A program made the translations under genes and the position numbers. The notes below the pieces were generated by a model. It was not told the origin of the DNA and made no database searches. It saw only the letters and a program-made list of their open reading frames with translations. A stretch of 64,000 bases of DNA from Halorhabdus rudnickae. GTDB lineage: Archaea > Halobacteriota > Halobacteria > Halobacteriales > Haloarculaceae. Below, one piece after another: positions 5,931 through 18,070 of the stretch. The stretch lies in contig NZ_CAAHFB010000001.1 of NCBI RefSeq assembly GCF_900880625.1, positions 248,001-312,000 of the forward strand, read 5' to 3'. Numbering within the stretch: the first letter of the stretch is position 1; each line of letters opens with the position of its first letter.

Positions 5931-6506
5931 TCACCTGCTCGCGCGCTCGATACCGTCGAAGGCGTCGAGGAGATCCGTCGCCTCTCCGAGTAGTCTACGC
6001 GCACGTCCTTCCAGCCGGCGCGACCGTTCCTGCCTGCGTTGATAGGCTTCGTGGGACTCCCGCTGTTCGGCCGGGAGTTCGGCCGCGATAATCTGGCGTT
6101 TGGCTTCGACGCTGAAGTACTCTCCAAGGGTCGCGTACCCGAGGATGGTGCACTGCTGGGTCACTACCGTCTGGACGTCCTCGCGGTCGACCGGCTTGCA
6201 GAGGTAGTCGTCGAACGGCATGTCGAGAATGTCGAAGTCCGGATCGATCGCCGTTACCATGATGACCCGCCCGGCGAAGTCCATCTCCGCGAGTTCCGCA
6301 AGGACGTCGTCACCGGACATGCCGGGCATATGACGATCGAGTAGCACGATGTCGATATCGCGACTTCGGGCCGCCTCCAGGGCCGCTTGGCCGTCGTATG
6401 CGGTCTCGACCTCACAGAGTCCGCGCAGGCGGAGCGCGTAGGCGTCCGCAACCTCCCGCTCGTCGTCCACGACCAGCGCCTGCGGGAGGTCTTCAGTGTT
6501 TCCCAT
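5931..6506 (-). CDS. Response regulator with HalX output domain
   Basis: The 191-residue protein has a receiver domain with the acidic pair DDE near the start (ALVVDDEREVADAY), the phosphoacceptor Asp in DIVLLDRHMPGMSGDD (about residue 56), a Thr in IMVTAID and a Lys in DYLCKPVDRE. A C-terminal HalX helical domain (about 130-190, EAYQRRQERSRRLEGRARRL) is found almost only in haloarchaea. There is no DNA-binding domain, so output is probably by protein contact. No kinase is in the same operon. Histidine kinase genes start about 0.8 kb away in the opposite direction, and one of them could be the partner. Confidence 0.92.
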   Translation of the reverse strand: MGNTEDLPQALVVDDEREVADAYALRLRGLCEVETAYDGQAALEAARSRDIDIVLLDRHMPGMSGDDVLAELAEMDFAGRVIMVTAIDPDFDILDMPFDDYLCKPVDREDVQTVVTQQCTILGYATLGEYFSVEAKRQIIAAELPAEQRESHEAYQRRQERSRRLEGRARRLLGEATDLLDAFDGIERASR

Positions 6507-6712: not shown

Positions 6713-7144
6713 ATGTCGAGCGAACCAGTCCGGCCCCGAGTTGGCCCCGACCCACCAGCAGCGACGCCGACAGTGGCGCATGGAGACGATAAATGGCACC
6801 ACGAGGATCCGACGACGCTACTCGAAGCGCTCGGCGACGAATACACAAGGGCTGCCTTCAAGGCCGTGCTTGACCGAGCCCGGAGCGGTCGAGAGGTCGC
6901 GGCAGTGACCGATATGTCTCCGCCGACGGCATTCCGACGGCTCAACGTACTCGTCGATCTCGGCCTGCTTGAGACTGAACTCCGTATCGATGCTGACGGC
7001 GGCCACCATCACAAAGTTTACCGTGCCGTCGTCGGCTCGTTTTCCGTGAGTATCGAGGAGGGTGAGGTCGATGTCGTCATCGAGCCCGATCTCCCAGTCG
7101 GACCTCGATTCGAACAGCCGGCCGCCGCCCCGGCGGACGACTGA
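6713..7144 (+). CDS. Winged-helix transcriptional regulator
   Basis: The 143-residue protein has a disordered N-terminus and an ArsR-like winged helix at about 33-105 (LLEALGDEYTRAAFKAVLD, then MSPPTAFRRLNVLVDLGLLE as the recognition-helix segment). It has a wing with GGHHHKVYR and a C-terminal beta strand pair. It is a clear paralogue of the protein at 18,195-18,674. The signal it senses is unknown; GGHHH could be a metal site but DGHHRK in the paralogue keeps only part of it. It lies just before the kinase pair and may form a unit with it, separated by 165 bases. Confidence 0.82.
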   Translation: MSSEPVRPRVGPDPPAATPTVAHGDDKWHHEDPTTLLEALGDEYTRAAFKAVLDRARSGREVAAVTDMSPPTAFRRLNVLVDLGLLETELRIDADGGHHHKVYRAVVGSFSVSIEEGEVDVVIEPDLPVGPRFEQPAAAPADD

Positions 7145-7309
7145 GGGTTCGCTTCGCATAGCCCCACGAACCCCCGTATCTAAGTGCCATGGCTGTCCAG
7201 GGAGACACAAAGTCAGGCCATCGCAGGCGATGACGGATGTCGCCCAATCCGTAGCCCTCTTGACGCCGACACCGCCGGACCGACGCACCGCTTCATTCGA
7301 GCACGAACC

Positions 7310-8968
7310 ATGGTCTCTCATACCACACTTCGCCTCGGGATAACCGCGTTTGCGGGCATCGTAGCCGTCGCGCTCGTGGCGATCCTTCTTCGACACCGCG
7401 AGCGAGCCAGTGCCCGGTCACTGCTGGGCGTCGGGGTGGTCACAGCGGTTGGATCTTTCCTGCACCTGTTGGTCGCCGATCTTACGCCGCCGAACGCGGC
7501 GCTTGCGGTGACCGGCTGGGACCTCGAGACGACGGCCTGGGTTATGGTCGGGACGACCGTCGTAGTGATCGCTGACGGACTGTGGGTACTGTTTGCTTTT
7601 CGTTACGCCGGTCGCTCCCGGTGCGTCATTCAGGCGACTGCCGCGACCGTGGCGACGATCTCACTCGGTGCCGTCTCGATCACAGCGGTCGCACTCGGGG
7701 GGCCGACGACGCTTGCCTTGCAGCTGTTGACGGTGGCGTTCCTCCTGGTGGGATTTCTGGTGACCATCGGTGTGTTCTTGCTCGTGTGGACGTCGATCGG
7801 TCAGGGGGCAGCCCCGCTCCAGGGGCCACTGGTGTTGTCTGCTGGCGCGATTGTATTGCTGTCCGGAAGTTTCGTCGCGCAGCTCTTCGAGCGGCCGGTA
7901 CTCCTCCCGGCGTTCTCGTCGCTCGCGAGTGGACTCTTCCTCGTTGCCGTCGTCCGCTATCCGGTCTTCGAGATGCCGGCGGCCGCACGAGTTCTGGGCC
8001 GAGATCGAGTCGTCGACGAACTGGCCGATGGCATCCTGATCGCCGACCGACGCGGACAGTTGCGGGACCTCAATCCCGCTGCAGAACAGTTGTTCGACAT
8101 CTCCCGGGCGTCGGTTCTGGGCCAGCCGATTGGATCGCTCTTTCCCACCACCGTCGACCCCAGTGTGCTAACGGGGCAAGCAGAACCGCTCCGGGTCGAG
8201 TTGGCTGACGGGACGGCGCTATCTGTGACCGCCGACCACGTCACCGATGGTCGGAACCGGATTGTTGGCTCGCTCGTGCGTTGTACTGACGTGACCGACC
8301 GGCAGCGGCGGGAGGAACAGCTGACGCTGCTCAGTCGATTCGTCGTTGAAGTGATCCGCGGGCGCATGGCTGGAGTGGCCGATGAGGCCGAGACATACAC
8401 GGCCGACTCGGTGTCGGGTGAGCCTGCCGAAGTTGCGGATCACCTCTGGAAGCGGACGACCAACCTGACCGCCCTCGTCGCCCAGACGCGGTCGATCGAA
8501 CAGGCCATCGCCGAGAACGGGATCCGCTCAGAGCAGCGACTCGATGCCGGGTCTGTCCTTCGAGAGCTCCGCGATGCTATCGCAACTGGATCAGGACGAC
8601 AGATCGAGATCGACGATCCCGGCACCCCCATCGAGACGACGATCAGCCCGGAACTGCTGGACGCATTGCTCGAACCAGTGCTCGAAGACGCCTGTGCCCA
8701 CGCCGAGGCACGCGTCGAAATAGCCGTCGACCGCGACAGACCGACGATCCGGATCGCCGACGATCGGGCAACTCTCGACGACTGTAGGGACCATGGACGC
8801 GACGCCGATCTTCCGCTGGCCGTCACGCGTCTGGCGCTCGAACAACTCGATGGCTCTCTCTCCGTCGAGTGGCCCCCAGAGGGACGACGCACGGTCATCG
8901 TTCGACTCCCGACGCGTGTCACGCCCGAACCGGGACGGGCACTGATTGAGAGAGGTGACGAACAGTGA
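7310..8968 (+). CDS. Membrane sensor with PAS domain and degenerate histidine-kinase region (pseudokinase)
   Basis: ATG 7310 starts a 552-residue protein. It has seven or eight hydrophobic segments (about 1-225), a PAS domain (about 240-350, LADGILIADRRGQLRDLNPAAEQLF) and a region collinear with a kinase core. At the H-box, where family members read LNRVIRHNLRND, this protein has LLSRFVVEVIRGRMAG without the His. The N-box has LEDACAHA with Asp for Asn, and the glycine-rich ATP loops are absent (RIADDRATLDD, ADLPLAVTRLALEQLDG). It should neither autophosphorylate nor bind ATP normally. Its stop overlaps the next start (GTGA), so it is translationally coupled to an intact kinase of the same design and is best read as its sensor or regulatory partner. 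Confidence 0.85.
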   Translation: MVSHTTLRLGITAFAGIVAVALVAILLRHRERASARSLLGVGVVTAVGSFLHLLVADLTPPNAALAVTGWDLETTAWVMVGTTVVVIADGLWVLFAFRYAGRSRCVIQATAATVATISLGAVSITAVALGGPTTLALQLLTVAFLLVGFLVTIGVFLLVWTSIGQGAAPLQGPLVLSAGAIVLLSGSFVAQLFERPVLLPAFSSLASGLFLVAVVRYPVFEMPAAARVLGRDRVVDELADGILIADRRGQLRDLNPAAEQLFDISRASVLGQPIGSLFPTTVDPSVLTGQAEPLRVELADGTALSVTADHVTDGRNRIVGSLVRCTDVTDRQRREEQLTLLSRFVVEVIRGRMAGVADEAETYTADSVSGEPAEVADHLWKRTTNLTALVAQTRSIEQAIAENGIRSEQRLDAGSVLRELRDAIATGSGRQIEIDDPGTPIETTISPELLDALLEPVLEDACAHAEARVEIAVDRDRPTIRIADDRATLDDCRDHGRDADLPLAVTRLALEQLDGSLSVEWPPEGRRTVIVRLPTRVTPEPGRALIERGDEQ

Positions 8969-10644
8969 TCCGGCTCGCCTGGGCCACTTTCGGCGTCGTC
9001 GTGCTCGGGACCGGCGCCCTGATCGCGGGGCGAGTCGCCCGTCGGCACGACCAGCCAGGGATCGTCCCCTATGCGCTACTGGCTGTTCTGCTCGCCGGAT
9101 TGAGCGCGACGATTGCGTCAAGTCGATCCGGCGTGATACCGATCGAACTCGACGCGGTCAGCGACTTGCTCCTCATCGGGGGGTATGCGTTCGCCTCGTT
9201 GCTGTGGATCGCGTTTGTCTTCGAGTATACTGGCCGTGGGCCGTCGATAACGCCACGGCGCTGGGTCGGTCTGGCCCTTCTCGGCGGGCTGACAGTCGCG
9301 AGTACGGCGATCACCTGGGCCCAGCAGACAGACCGGATTCACGCGGGCCTGCTCGGGTCGATCTCGTATCTTATCACGTTCGTTTTGCAGGTGGCCGTGT
9401 TCTCGTTGGGCCTGCTCGGCGTGGTGTTGCTCGTGCGCTCGGCGGTAACCTACGACGATCTGCCGCTGGGCTCGGCGGCGGCGTTCGTGCTCGCGGGTGT
9501 TGGCATCACGTTTCTCCCGATCACGATCGGCTACGGTGGCCTGCTCGCTGGTGAGTTAATCTATCGCGTCGTCTTCGTTCAGCTTGCAGTCGTGGTCGGC
9601 CTCTTCGCCTGGCTCACGTTCGGAACCGGTGCCTTCGAACGGGGCGTTGCGGCGGGACATCTCGCCCGAGAGACGGCTCTCGACGCGATGTCCGATCCCG
9701 TAGTCGTCGTCGACCGGAGGAACCGGCTCATCGATATCAACAAGGCCGCAGCCGAGACCTTCGGCGTCGGAGCGATTCGACACCGAGACCAGTCTCTCGC
9801 CGACGTGGCGGATGTCCCCGAGGACCTTTCGGAAGCCCGATCGATCACGCTCCAGACCACTCTCGGGCAACGGGAGTTCGTCGTCGATCGGACCGGGATC
9901 GACGACACGGACGGCGATGTACTTGGACATGCCTACCGATTCCGGGATGTAACCGACCGCGAGACCCGCGAACAGCGCATACAGGTGCTCAACCGAGTAA
10001 TTCGACACAATCTTCGGAACGATCTCGATGCGATCCGGGGTTTCGCAGAACCGATCCGCGATGGGGGACTCCCGGTCGAAGAGTCCGGACAGTACTTCGA
10101 ACGGATCGGCTCGCTGGCGACCGGGGTGGTCGATCTCGCCGACACTGTCAAGCGATCTGAGCGTGTGCTGACGGATGCACGTCTCGAACGGAACCCTTGT
10201 GACCTCGTCGCGATTGCGCGGACAGTCGCCGAGACTACGACGGACGCCGAGGTCACGATCGATGCCCCGGACGCCGTTGCGATCCGGTCCGATCGCAACG
10301 CGATCGAACTGGTACTCGAGGAATTACTCGAGAACGCCGTGACCCATACCGACCGGGAGACGCCGTCGGTTACGATCCGCGTCCACTCGACGGGAGATGG
10401 TGGGCAGATCGAAGTGCAAGACGAAGGGCCAGGAATTCCGCCCGAAGAGCGGGCCGTCCTCCTCGAAGGGGCGGAGACGCCAGTCAGACACGGCAGCGGG
10501 GTCGGCCTCTGGCTGGTCTCTTGGACCGTGACGCGATTGGGCGGGAGCCTATCGTTCGAACAACCGGAACCGAACGGGAGCGTCGTGATCGTGGATATCC
10601 CTGATTTGGACGCACCGAACCGACCTGGGACGACTGACGACTGA
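8965..10644 (+). CDS. Membrane-bound PAS sensor histidine kinase
   Basis: Beginning at GTG 8965 inside the stop region of the previous gene, the 559-residue protein has an N-terminal block of seven or so membrane helices (about 1-225) and a PAS domain (about 235-340, LDAMSDPVVVVDRRNRLID). A full kinase core follows: H-box NRVIRHNLRNDLDAIRGFAE, N-box LEELLENAVTHT, G1 DEGPGIPPEE and G2 HGSGVGLWLV. It therefore phosphorylates a partner response regulator, none of which is adjacent in the operon. The membrane block resembles the 7TM sensor of haloarchaeal kinases. The overlap with the pseudokinase suggests a heteromeric sensor. Confidence 0.93.
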   Translation: MIRLAWATFGVVVLGTGALIAGRVARRHDQPGIVPYALLAVLLAGLSATIASSRSGVIPIELDAVSDLLLIGGYAFASLLWIAFVFEYTGRGPSITPRRWVGLALLGGLTVASTAITWAQQTDRIHAGLLGSISYLITFVLQVAVFSLGLLGVVLLVRSAVTYDDLPLGSAAAFVLAGVGITFLPITIGYGGLLAGELIYRVVFVQLAVVVGLFAWLTFGTGAFERGVAAGHLARETALDAMSDPVVVVDRRNRLIDINKAAAETFGVGAIRHRDQSLADVADVPEDLSEARSITLQTTLGQREFVVDRTGIDDTDGDVLGHAYRFRDVTDRETREQRIQVLNRVIRHNLRNDLDAIRGFAEPIRDGGLPVEESGQYFERIGSLATGVVDLADTVKRSERVLTDARLERNPCDLVAIARTVAETTTDAEVTIDAPDAVAIRSDRNAIELVLEELLENAVTHTDRETPSVTIRVHSTGDGGQIEVQDEGPGIPPEERAVLLEGAETPVRHGSGVGLWLVSWTVTRLGGSLSFEQPEPNGSVVIVDIPDLDAPNRPGTTDD

Positions 10645-10729: not shown

Positions 10730-12079
10730 ATGACATCCCTCCAACGACGTCGATTCCTTGAACTTGGCGCGGCAGCGACAGCCGTTTCACTCAGTGGTTG
10801 TCTCGGCTCCGGCACTGAATTCCCGTCCTTCGCAGAGTGGATCCCGGCGACGGACGGCGGCGTCCCCGTCGGTTACCTGGACTTCAGCATCGCCACGGAC
10901 GCACAGGAAGGCGAGCAACTGTTGCCGTTGATCCTCCCTGGAGGCGTGACCGGCGGTCCCGACGAGGTTCTGACTGAGGTTTCCGGCCTGGATAGCGTGG
11001 ACGATCCGTTGCTCGCCTGGCCCCTGGAAGTCGGCGGTCAATTGATCGGCGGGGCGGCGCTTGGCATCGCCGTGTCCGGGCTCAACTATCTCATCGATCC
11101 CGAGCGGCCGGATAGCGGGGTCGAGGAGTTGTTCATGGCGGACACCGTCGCAGTCGGCCGGGGAGACATTGACCTCGCCGAGGCCGACGAGCGATTGCGC
11201 GCCGGATCTGACGGTCCGATCGGTGACGTACCCTTCGAGGAGACTGGCTCGATCGAGGAGTTTACGCTATACGAACCGATCGACGACGAGATACTGGACG
11301 GCGTCACCGCGATCAGCGAGAGCACCGTTCTCGTCGCTGACACCAGCAAGGAAATCCGACGCGTCGTCGAGACCACGCAAGGCGACCGCGCCGGGGAAAT
11401 CGCAGAGACCGAGACCTTCGAGTGGCTGGTTGAAACGGCCGGGAGTGGACACGTCGTGGGTGGCTGGCTCGGTCCAATCGACCTCGAAGACGTGTATTTT
11501 GGCGACCCGACTGCTCGCCCCGTCAATGGTCTCCTCGGCGCCGCGGACGACGTCCTTGCGTCGGTGGCGTTCGACGCCGGCAGCGGCGATGTCATGGCCG
11601 ACTTCGCGGTCCAGCGCCCCCTCGATGACGCGACGGCCAGCCAGTTCGAATCGCGGTTCGGTTCAGCGAGCGAGGACCACTCGGTGACCGTCAAAAACGA
11701 GCGGGTGACCGCCAGCGGGACTTACAACGAAGATGTCCTCGACATCGAGTACACCCAGCCGGACCGGACGACGACAGCGGTCCCCGACGCGAGCGAGCCT
11801 GTCGATCCGCCCGAAACGGTCGCGGCGGCCGTCCCCGACGATCCGTTTGCATTCACCTACGAGGCCGAACAGGATCGCGTGAAGGTCACGATTACTGACG
11901 ATCTCGATGTGGACGAAGTGACGTTCGAGACCGTCGAATCCGACTACGAAGCCTCGACGACGACGCCACGAGCGGACATGTACCTGTACGTTTACGTCCA
12001 TCCGGACGGCGACACAGTGGTCGTGACTGTGACCGTCGACGGGACGTCCGGCGTCGTCGCCAGAAAGGAGTTCCCCTGA
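10730..12079 (+). CDS. Tat-type lipoprotein of unknown function
   Basis: The 449-residue protein opens with SLQRRRFLELGAAATAVSLSGC, a twin-arginine signal followed by a lipobox, so it is exported folded and anchored through Cys24 on the outside of the membrane. The mature part is acidic and has no motif I recognise; a C-terminal region (about 360-447) has alternating strands such as VTITDDLDVDEVTFETVES. It is not in an operon with the kinases as far as spacing shows (85 bases), and it runs toward the RDD gene. Confidence 0.7.
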   Translation: MTSLQRRRFLELGAAATAVSLSGCLGSGTEFPSFAEWIPATDGGVPVGYLDFSIATDAQEGEQLLPLILPGGVTGGPDEVLTEVSGLDSVDDPLLAWPLEVGGQLIGGAALGIAVSGLNYLIDPERPDSGVEELFMADTVAVGRGDIDLAEADERLRAGSDGPIGDVPFEETGSIEEFTLYEPIDDEILDGVTAISESTVLVADTSKEIRRVVETTQGDRAGEIAETETFEWLVETAGSGHVVGGWLGPIDLEDVYFGDPTARPVNGLLGAADDVLASVAFDAGSGDVMADFAVQRPLDDATASQFESRFGSASEDHSVTVKNERVTASGTYNEDVLDIEYTQPDRTTTAVPDASEPVDPPETVAAAVPDDPFAFTYEAEQDRVKVTITDDLDVDEVTFETVESDYEASTTTPRADMYLYVYVHPDGDTVVVTVTVDGTSGVVARKEFP

Positions 12080-14710: not shown

Positions 14711-16285
14711 ATGGACGACGGGTTCGAGCACGCACCGATCGGCATTCTCGAAGTGACTCCGGAAGGGGTTGTTCTCGGCGGTAACGCCGCCGCTGGGAGC
14801 GTTCTCGGGATGGATCCTGACGCCATCGCTGGCGAGCCGATCGACGCCTTCTTTCCAATATCTGTCGAGAGTCGCGTTCCCCGGGCGTTCGAGACTCCAC
14901 CGGACGCGGAGCTGTCTTTCGAGGAGTACTATCCCGACCTGGAACGGTGGCTCGCGGTCGATATTGTCCCCTCTGACGGGACTGTTTACGTCTACCTTCG
15001 GGACGAAACCGACGACCACCAGCGCGACCAGCAACTGGAATCGCTTCGATCTGACCTCCGCCGGCTGACGATCGGAAACGAACTCATCGCGGACGTACTC
15101 GGCGACCTCGTTGAGGCTTCAACGCGGGAGGAAATCGCGGAAACCATTTGCCGACAACTGGGCGAAACCGACATCTACGAGTTCGCCTGGGTCGGCGAGC
15201 GCGCGGTGGGGTCCGAAGAGATCACTCTTCGGGCCGCCGCCGGGACGACCGGGCGGACGCTCGACCGGATCGAAGACGCGCTCGACAGCGACGTGGCCCT
15301 GCCCGAACTGCGTGCGATCGAGCGTGGCGAGCCGACGATTGTGCAGTCACTCAGTGAGGAAGAATCCGTCCCCGAAGCAATCCGTCGGGCGGCCTTCGCC
15401 GACGGACTGGGGTCGTTGCTTGCCGTCCCGCTGACCTACGGGTCGAGTGTCTACGGCGTCGTCGGCGTCTATGCAGCCGATTGCAAGGCCTTCTCCGAGC
15501 GCGAACGAGAGAGTTTCGGCACCGTCGGGGAGATGGCCGGGTTCGCCATCAACGCGACTCGCAACCGCTCGTTACTGTCTGCCGATCGGGTTGTCGAACT
15601 CACGCTCCGGCTGTCCGATCCCGCCGCGCCGTTCGTCGCGACGGGAGCCGAAACCGACACTCGAATTGACATGAAAGGCGTGATTCCGCAGGGTAAAGAG
15701 CTTCTCTGTTACGTCGACGCTGAAACTGGCGAGCAGTCTCCGGACGAGATTGCAGCCACGCTTGCGGACCACCAGGCGATAGTCGAGACGCGAACGGTTG
15801 CCGAGTACGACGGCGGCGGGTCGATCGAAGTCCGTCAGCGTGCCGAAACGCCACTCGGGCAACTCCTCAGTCAGGGCGGGATAGTTCGATCGGCCACGTT
15901 CGGTCCAGACGAGGATCGGGTCGTCATCGAACTGCCGCCCTCAGAGGACGTCCGCCGGATCGCTGATGCGATCACACGCCAGTACGACGCCGAAGTGCTC
16001 GCGAAGCGCGAACGAAAGCGGGACGAGCGCACGACTGGAGAAGTCCGGGACGAGCTGACCGACCGGCTGACCGACCGACAGCAAGAGGCCCTTCGAACAG
16101 CCTTCTACGCTGATTACTTCGAATCGCCACGAGAGAGTTCTGCAGCGGAGGTCGCCGACGCCCTGGGGATCACCGGCCCAACGCTGCTTCACCACCTCCG
16201 GGCCGGACAGCGAAAGCTCCTGGCAGAACTCTTCGAGGCGACGGTTCGACGGGTCGATCCGGGCCGGTCGTCGGACGGCGCCTGA
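14711..16285 (+). CDS. Bacterio-opsin-activator-type regulator: PAS, GAF and HTH_10
   Basis: The 524-residue protein has a PAS domain (about 5-105, FEHAPIGILEVTPEGVVLGG), a GAF domain (about 130-290, TREEIAETICRQLGE to YGVVGVYAADCKAFSE), a Bat-type beta region and a C-terminal HTH_10 domain (about 455-515, LTDRQQEALRTAFYADYFE, then ALGITGPTLLHHLRAGQRKL). This is the architecture of haloarchaeal Bat-like transcription factors that respond to redox, light or small molecules. The ligand is not deducible. It is flanked by AIM24 on the opposite strand, so its target may lie elsewhere. Confidence 0.88.
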   Translation: MDDGFEHAPIGILEVTPEGVVLGGNAAAGSVLGMDPDAIAGEPIDAFFPISVESRVPRAFETPPDAELSFEEYYPDLERWLAVDIVPSDGTVYVYLRDETDDHQRDQQLESLRSDLRRLTIGNELIADVLGDLVEASTREEIAETICRQLGETDIYEFAWVGERAVGSEEITLRAAAGTTGRTLDRIEDALDSDVALPELRAIERGEPTIVQSLSEEESVPEAIRRAAFADGLGSLLAVPLTYGSSVYGVVGVYAADCKAFSERERESFGTVGEMAGFAINATRNRSLLSADRVVELTLRLSDPAAPFVATGAETDTRIDMKGVIPQGKELLCYVDAETGEQSPDEIAATLADHQAIVETRTVAEYDGGGSIEVRQRAETPLGQLLSQGGIVRSATFGPDEDRVVIELPPSEDVRRIADAITRQYDAEVLAKRERKRDERTTGEVRDELTDRLTDRQQEALRTAFYADYFESPRESSAAEVADALGITGPTLLHHLRAGQRKLLAELFEATVRRVDPGRSSDGA

Positions 16286-17071: not shown

Positions 17072-18070
17072 TCAACGGGCTTCAATCCCAGTGATCTCGA
17101 AGCGAGCGCCCCCGCTTGCGGTGTCAGTGATTTCCACCGACCAGCCGTGCAGATCGACGATCCGGGCGACGATCGACAGGCCGAGCCCCGTCCCGTGATT
17201 GTCGGTGCTGAATCCGGGATCGAAGACCCGATCTCGCTGTTCCGGCGGAATTCCGCGCCCATCGTCGGCAACGTAGAAGCCCGTTGTTTCCTCGAGCGGA
17301 CCGACAGTGACGGTCACGCCGGACCCACCGTGCTCGACGGCATTCCGGAAGAGATTCTCGAAGAGCCGTCCCAGGCGATCGGGATCACCAACGACAGTGG
17401 GCAGCGATTCCTCGATGACGATGGTGGCGGCGTCGGTCTCGACGACGTTCCACGCCGCCTTCGCGGCAGATCCGAGATCGACTACCTCGTCGGGCTGGAC
17501 CACGTCGGATCCCCTGGCCAGCGTCAGTACGTCCTCGATGATCCGTTCCATCCGATCGTGGGCGTCGGAAACGTGCTCGAAGTGTTCTGCCTCGCCGGTT
17601 TCCCGAGCGGCCCGCAAGCGAGCTTTGGCGACGTCTAGGGGGTTTCGTAGGTCGTGACTGATCACGCTCGCTACGTGATCGAGTCCGACCTCACTGGGCT
17701 CTCGAGCGACCCCGGCCGGAAGGGGATTGAACAGGAGTACCCCACCGACGTCCCCGTCTGACGGGACGACCCGTAGGAGATACTGGTCCCCTGACTTGGC
17801 CTCGGAGCCTACCTTTCCAGTTTCGACGATAAGCCGGTCGTCTTCCGTCCCAATTACAGCCCTATTGTTCGTACCCAACACGATCGACAGATCGACCGCC
17901 TCGAACACTGTTCTCACTGGTTCACCCGGCGTTATGGACCCGAAAGTCGTCTCGAAGGCCCCATTCACCGCTTCAACCACCGGGGTTCCGGTGTCGATCT
18001 CAAAGCAACAGACCGGATCGGGCCACTGATCAATGGGGAACGGCTCCATCGTCGTGTTGTCCTCAGTCAT
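17072..18070 (-). CDS. Soluble PAS histidine kinase
   Basis: The 332-residue protein has no membrane helix. A PAS-like domain occupies about 10-115 (CFEIDTGTPVVEAVNGAFE), followed by a kinase core: H-box VASVISHDLRNPLDVAKARL, N-box LFENLFRNAVEH, G1 DDGRGIPPEQRD and G2 NHGTGLGLSIV. All catalytic motifs are intact. No response regulator is adjacent; the HalX protein at 5.9 kb is the only receiver in the window. A wHTH gene is divergent from it. Confidence 0.92.
   Translation of the reverse strand: MTEDNTTMEPFPIDQWPDPVCCFEIDTGTPVVEAVNGAFETTFGSITPGEPVRTVFEAVDLSIVLGTNNRAVIGTEDDRLIVETGKVGSEAKSGDQYLLRVVPSDGDVGGVLLFNPLPAGVAREPSEVGLDHVASVISHDLRNPLDVAKARLRAARETGEAEHFEHVSDAHDRMERIIEDVLTLARGSDVVQPDEVVDLGSAAKAAWNVVETDAATIVIEESLPTVVGDPDRLGRLFENLFRNAVEHGGSGVTVTVGPLEETTGFYVADDGRGIPPEQRDRVFDPGFSTDNHGTGLGLSIVARIVDLHGWSVEITDTASGGARFEITGIEAR

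Follow-up and report, generated by a model that had tools for sequence, protein, structure and literature searches.

Overlapping genes for a 7TM-PAS pseudokinase and an intact histidine kinase, probably forming a mixed receptor in haloarchaea

The window analysed here is a stretch of 64,000 nucleotides from Halorhabdus rudnickae (contig NZ_CAAHFB010000001.1, positions 248,001 to 312,000). It carries on its forward strand two overlapping genes for membrane proteins of histidine kinase design, referred to as A and B. Protein A (7310-8968, 552 aa) starts with ATG and protein B (8965-10644, 559 aa) with GTG. Both share one design, consisting of a seven-transmembrane (7TM) part, a PAS domain, a dimerization and histidine-phosphotransfer (DHp) part and a catalytic and ATP-binding (CA) part. 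In A, these are the 7TM part at 7310-7984, the PAS domain at 7997-8293, DHp-like helices at 8294-8524 and a degenerate CA part at 8525-8917. The corresponding parts of B lie at 8965-9648, 9658-9963, 9964-10179 and 10180-10608. An alternative in-frame GTG at 7184 would extend A to 594 aa; homologues favour the ATG at 7310. The start codon of B lies over the stop codon of A in a GTGA at 8965-8968, and a Shine-Dalgarno-like GAGGTGA is found at 8952-8958, within the end of A and upstream of B. In Pfam searches, window A matched PAS alone, and neither HisKA nor HATPase_c was found even at E ≤ 10. Window B matched PAS and HATPase_c (67.8 bits), with HisKA and HisKA_7TM below threshold. For HisKA_7TM (PF16927), there was no match to window A and a score of 21.7 bits for window B, under the cut-off of 28.6; at E ≤ 0.01 this family matches 25 of 28 A relatives and 24 of 29 B relatives. 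No Response_reg match, indicative of a receiver domain, was obtained with Pfam for A or B in the window or in the relatives.

The kinase-like half of A has lost the catalytic residues that B has kept. The kinase-box names are applied to both proteins in what we take to be their usual sense. In the alignment of the two window proteins, the phospho-acceptor His of B (H348, codon 10006-10008) is opposite a Glu of A (E347, codon 8348-8350), and the N-box Asn of B (N457, 10333-10335) is opposite an Asp (D460, codon 8687-8689). The G1 and G2 loops of A are degenerate: the DEGPGIP of B stands opposite DDRATLD, and the GSGVGLW of B is without counterpart. Across the 34 A–B pairs collected from haloarchaea, the phospho-His column contains no His in any A protein (13 Glu, 10 Asp, 9 Gly, 1 Ser and 1 gap), an acidic residue thus replacing it in 23, whereas His is present in all 34 B proteins. 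Likewise, the N-box Asn is absent from every A (Asp in 25) and present in every B. Both residues occur in 18/18 intact outgroup kinases, a count that reflects their choice by motif; two of originally 20 were removed as duplicates ahead of the tree. The G1 Asp is retained in 8/34 A proteins, and the G2 glycines of B are found in no A protein. With Pfam, HATPase_c was matched in 29/29 B relatives and went unmatched in 27/28 A relatives. The least decayed A protein, that of genome G227 (L101 7789-9480), reaches 34.6 bits for HATPase_c against a cut-off of 26.4, and has lost the phospho-His and the N-box Asn despite this match. An intact H-box or ATP site displaced within A was also looked for and rejected: helix 1 of window A has no His, and the lone His found there in 6/34 relatives is off the register of B and mostly off that of the others. 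The relatives were picked by their likeness to A, so the uniform loss in A is partly a result of selection; B was not selected for. Judged by sequence, A is a pseudokinase and B an intact kinase of one design. This agrees with an earlier note on this DNA in that A has a 7TM-PAS front and lacks the His, the Asn and the G2 loop, and in that B has all motifs. The note's description of A as lacking the ATP loops is too strong for those A proteins that keep the G1 Asp and for the one that passes the HATPase_c cut-off.

The distribution of the pair was assessed by searching A against 59 relatives, 146 family genomes, 392 order genomes and 391 class genomes, sets that overlap. Among 31 neighbourhoods, the A–B tandem was present in 29, and two loci (L070 and L071) contained intact kinases instead. 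Five further genomes, all belonging to another family and each carrying the pair, came from a profile search of 292 class genomes. In total, 34 pairs were found in 33 haloarchaeal genomes, G232 having two, and named carriers include Halorhabdus, Halorientalis, Halovivax and Salinarchaeum. The pair is co-inherited down to about 30% identity. The 4-nt overlap is preserved in 31/34 pairs (26/29 and 5/5); the remaining three comprise overlaps of 7 nt and 1 nt and a locus at which A is likely frameshifted. In G142 (L105 7022-8698), A overlaps B far beyond what is seen at other loci, and a frameshift or assembly error near its end is likely; this protein was excluded from alignment A1 (28/29 used) and retained in the tree and in the column counts. 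In a scan of named genomes, all nine hits with at least 31% identity lacked the His and G1 motifs. Eight of these were followed by a kinase with both motifs at -1, -4 or -7. At the ninth, in Halorientalis pallida (L151), the next open reading frame begins across the stop codon of A and contains an H-box; this locus adds to the 34 pairs. Conservation in relatives, on which the earlier note had left its proposal to depend, is borne out by the pairs found. The 45 weaker hits of the scan showed the H-box pattern in 40 cases, lacked it in L163, L174, L191 and L198 and were doubtful in L202. The five A proteins outside profile training scored 254-274 bits, above other hits among the matches listed (246 or less), and their B partners rank among other kinases in the B-profile search. 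The A- and B-profile searches returned identical top 18 genomes, all of them in the training alignments, and this agreement was not used as independent evidence.

A Shine-Dalgarno-like site of at least five matching bases precedes B in 27/33 pairs, while the fraction in control windows averages 0.12; the call rests on what we take to be the haloarchaeal consensus. Together, the overlap and this site are compatible with re-initiation at B or with direct entry there. The GTGA overlap had been reported in the earlier note as fixing equal synthesis of both proteins. The overlap itself is real, but equal amounts do not follow from it, because B has a Shine-Dalgarno-like site of its own.

In a tree of 86 whole proteins, A and B each form one group, with Shimodaira-Hasegawa-like approximate likelihood ratio (SH-aLRT) supports of 100 and 98. 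Because degenerate kinase regions may attract each other in a tree, a second one was built from the 7TM and PAS parts alone. It recovers the same clades (A 100/99, B 100/98), and the monophyly of A as a by-product of its lost catalytic residues was rejected on this basis. In this second tree, B is nearest to intact kinases of other genomes. A is not the sister of B in the trees, and its own sister group is without resolution. The best explanation is that both A and B descend from 7TM-PAS histidine kinases. The pairwise distances of A and B are correlated (0.84; none of 2000 permutations as high).

Selection was assessed by the ratio of nonsynonymous to synonymous rates (dN/dS) in seven close species. 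For A, the ratio is 0.24 in the 7TM part, 0.22 in PAS, 0.39 in DHp and 0.41 in CA, with 0.80 in its short tail. The respective values for B are 0.22, 0.26, 0.14 and 0.21. A is under purifying selection, its kinase-like half being relaxed yet constrained, and a pseudogene was rejected by these ratios. Since A and B keep the 7TM and PAS parts under similar constraint, either or both halves may sense; the division of labour suggested in the earlier note, with sensing by the pseudokinase and signalling by its partner, does not follow from the sequences. The most conserved columns in the kinase-like half of A are located in the DHp helices (R394 100%, E397 97%, L341 94%), where a dimer contact would be expected to preserve them.

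The predicted structure of A (mean predicted local distance difference test score, pLDDT, 81; predicted template modelling score, pTM, 0.47) contains seven long N-terminal helices, a PAS domain, a pair of DHp helices and a fold of the CA type. Seven N-terminal helices were modelled in B as well. The predicted CA part of A aligns with solved CA domains, best with PhoQ 3cgz (Z 15.9, 126 residues, 2.5 Å), and the list of fold matches also includes DivL (4q20) and the RetS-GacS complex (7n0e). According to the model, a two-helix DHp part followed by a CA fold would thus be present in A. Matches of the 7TM part to G-protein-coupled receptors and rhodopsins were taken as generic helical bundles.

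A response regulator with receiver (REC) and HalX domains at 5931-6506 on the reverse strand is the likely output of the pair. Such a regulator lies within 6 kb of the pair at 22/34 loci (21 and G002), and about 20 kb away in G008; the genome of the window (3.36 Mb) has five HalX matches. Among the 59 relatives, this regulator occurs at 55% identity or more in 9/9 paired and 6/50 unpaired ones (Fisher 4e-7, kinship not corrected), the threshold having been set after the gap from 55 to 48% was visible. Between the response regulator and A, a small helix-turn-helix (HTH) protein is encoded at 6713-7144 on the forward strand (cluster in 17/34 loci). Further recurrent neighbours are a PAS-GAF-BAT-HTH_10 regulator at 14711-16285 on the forward strand (22/34 loci) and a soluble histidine kinase at 17072-18070 on the reverse strand (20/34 loci, i.e. 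19 and the window's own). The neighbour-gene calls are crude, families are single-linkage clusters, and the soluble kinase was counted from motif patterns. Directly downstream of B, a protein resembling a twin-arginine translocation (TAT) substrate or lipoprotein is encoded at 10730-12079, with no confident Pfam match and its cluster in 15/34 loci. The REC-HalX regulator, the small HTH protein, the soluble kinase and the PAS-GAF-BAT-HTH_10 regulator form a recurrent haloarchaeal module that also occurs without A and B. In the pair-less genomes G019, G039, G188 and G053, one intact 7TM-PAS kinase accompanies this regulator, the soluble kinase and the BAT gene, which suggests that at this old signalling locus the pair replaces one homodimeric receptor. 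In G023, G033 and G026, also pair-less, the three genes are present and no 7TM-PAS kinase was seen within the stretch examined. G019 additionally encodes a second 7TM-PAS protein divergently beside its intact kinase (L071 7117-8811 on the reverse and 8768-10477 on the forward strand). By eye, this second protein still has the His, while three further residues (N-box Asn, G1 Asp and one G2 Gly) are apparently gone; it is perhaps a separate, half-dead instance of the same trend.

A dedicated partnership of A and B is likely from the sequence data, because a pseudokinase and an intact kinase are coupled and co-inherited down to the identity given above. They probably form one mixed receptor, of which A and B would be the two halves. 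B would be the sole catalytic subunit, binding ATP and carrying the phospho-His. A, devoid of phospho-acceptor and ATP-site residues and still in possession of the 7TM part, PAS, both helices of the DHp part and the CA fold, would most likely pair with B via the membrane part and the bundle of DHp helices, and would shift B between kinase and phosphatase states. With overlapping genes, the two chains would tend to be made at one site and to assemble as A:B or A2B2, and the output would most likely be the neighbouring REC-HalX regulator. For this account as a whole, with B as catalytic subunit, A as allosteric partner and output to the response regulator, we see somewhat better than even prospects. 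If the unit is A:B, B would have to phosphorylate its own His in cis. A single-site receptor in the strict sense would be a dedicated asymmetric two-subunit kinase found across several haloarchaeal families, with one wholly dead protomer and a live one that acts in cis; this is possible but falls somewhat short of an even chance. As a speculation, the acidic residue at the dead site of A perhaps mimics a charge, giving a half that resembles a permanently phosphorylated one.

Several observations weigh against the A:B receptor. No REC-HalX regulator was found within 6 kb at 12/34 loci; the contigs of three of these loci measure 5-7 kb. The soluble histidine kinase competes with the pair as an input to this response regulator. 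Any two linked genes would likewise be co-inherited and show correlated distances. The arrangement of the domains of A is unsure because of the pTM stated above, and the kinase-like half of A is relaxed.

Alternatively, A and B might form separate homodimers. The coupling would then only match protein levels, and A would be a signalling-dead sensor or scaffold with its binding partner in the response regulator, in the soluble kinase or in the HTH protein. The 7TM and PAS parts of A, kept like those of a sensor in its own right, and the other possible partners at the locus would suit this explanation, which we nevertheless regard as unlikely, given the preserved overlap with B and the presence of B at all 34 loci, including the 12 without a nearby response regulator. 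A decaying duplicate of B hardly merits belief. The weaker constraint on the kinase-like half of A and the apparent frameshift in G142 may look like decay, but A is one old clade of 34 proteins that is not the sister of B, its dN/dS is well below 1 in every domain with only the tail at 0.80, and conservation across the 34 pairs refutes this explanation.

Two further explanations concern what A would do. It could form a heteromer of the RetS-GacS type and shut B off rather than aid sensing. We consider this improbable: nothing in the sequence sets the sign of control, and RetS and GacS are not known to be encoded by a coupled pair of genes. On the other hand, RetS-GacS works in this way according to the excerpt available (PMC12189002), and its complex 7n0e is in the fold list of A, though many kinases match. 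An unusual activity of A itself, such as some remaining binding of nucleotides or a phosphatase function towards the response regulator, would draw on the predicted CA fold, on the HATPase_c match in G227 and on the existence of archaeal kinases without phospho-His (MsmS; excerpt of PMC6944256). It is very improbable in view of the general absence of the N-box Asn, the G2 glycines and a HATPase_c match from A, and a His-based phosphatase would lack its His in this protein.

Histidine kinases are commonly presented as homodimers, and the heteromeric ones known to us are few and bacterial. DivL of Caulobacter, which we presume to have a Tyr at the phospho-His site, differs from A, where Tyr is absent from this column; nor is DivL known as a coupled twin of its partner CckA, whereas A and B share the 7TM-PAS design. 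The following comparisons draw on excerpts of the cited papers. DivL-CckA resembles the proposed receptor in that an inactive kinase-like protein controls a live kinase (PMC12189002, PMC9491836). RetS-GacS of Pseudomonas is likewise a two-kinase heterodimer in which one modulates the other (PMC12189002, PMC6944256), but these are hybrid kinases with receiver domains, which A and B lack. FasB and FasC of group A Streptococcus are an operon-encoded membrane kinase-like pair that forms a heterodimer in two-hybrid assays, one being a proposed pseudokinase; the likeness lies in two membrane kinase-like proteins, adjacent genes and one response regulator (PMC12675982). However, FasC keeps a phospho-His (H246), the proposed target of the FasB kinase domain, and the proteins are bacterial, with six transmembrane helices and no PAS (PMC12675982), in contrast to the archaeal 7TM-PAS design of A and B. 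Since A has neither His nor ATP site, B must be both donor and acceptor, unlike in FasB/FasC. In Corynebacterium, the CA-dead kinase ChrS pairs with its live paralogue HrrS and shapes the output; that pseudokinase arose from a frameshift in laboratory evolution (PMC9491836), whereas the state of A is old and inherited. Archaeal proteins with HisKA and no HATPase are also non-enzymatic and histidine-kinase-like, but keep the His, lack the HATPase domain and come mainly from Archaeoglobi and Methanomicrobia (PMC5847659). A, on the other hand, is haloarchaeal, paired with a kinase, without the His in 34/34 cases and with a dead CA fold kept. No published archaeal or haloarchaeal pseudokinase-kinase pair was found in the open-licence PMC literature.

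Should the strict asymmetric form hold, the pair would amount to a naturally occurring histidine kinase receptor with a single active site and, judging by the literature searched, to the first coupled pair of this sort in archaea. Annotation based on HATPase_c misses half of the receptor, because nearly all A proteins lack a match. The A protein of G227 would be a good starting point for residual nucleotide binding, and relatives in which one intact kinase seemingly serves this locus offer a natural comparison. A co-inherited pair in which evolution has silenced one half would be a ready system for the role of the second protomer, i.e. for questions of dimer asymmetry, of cis or trans reaction and of allosteric control.

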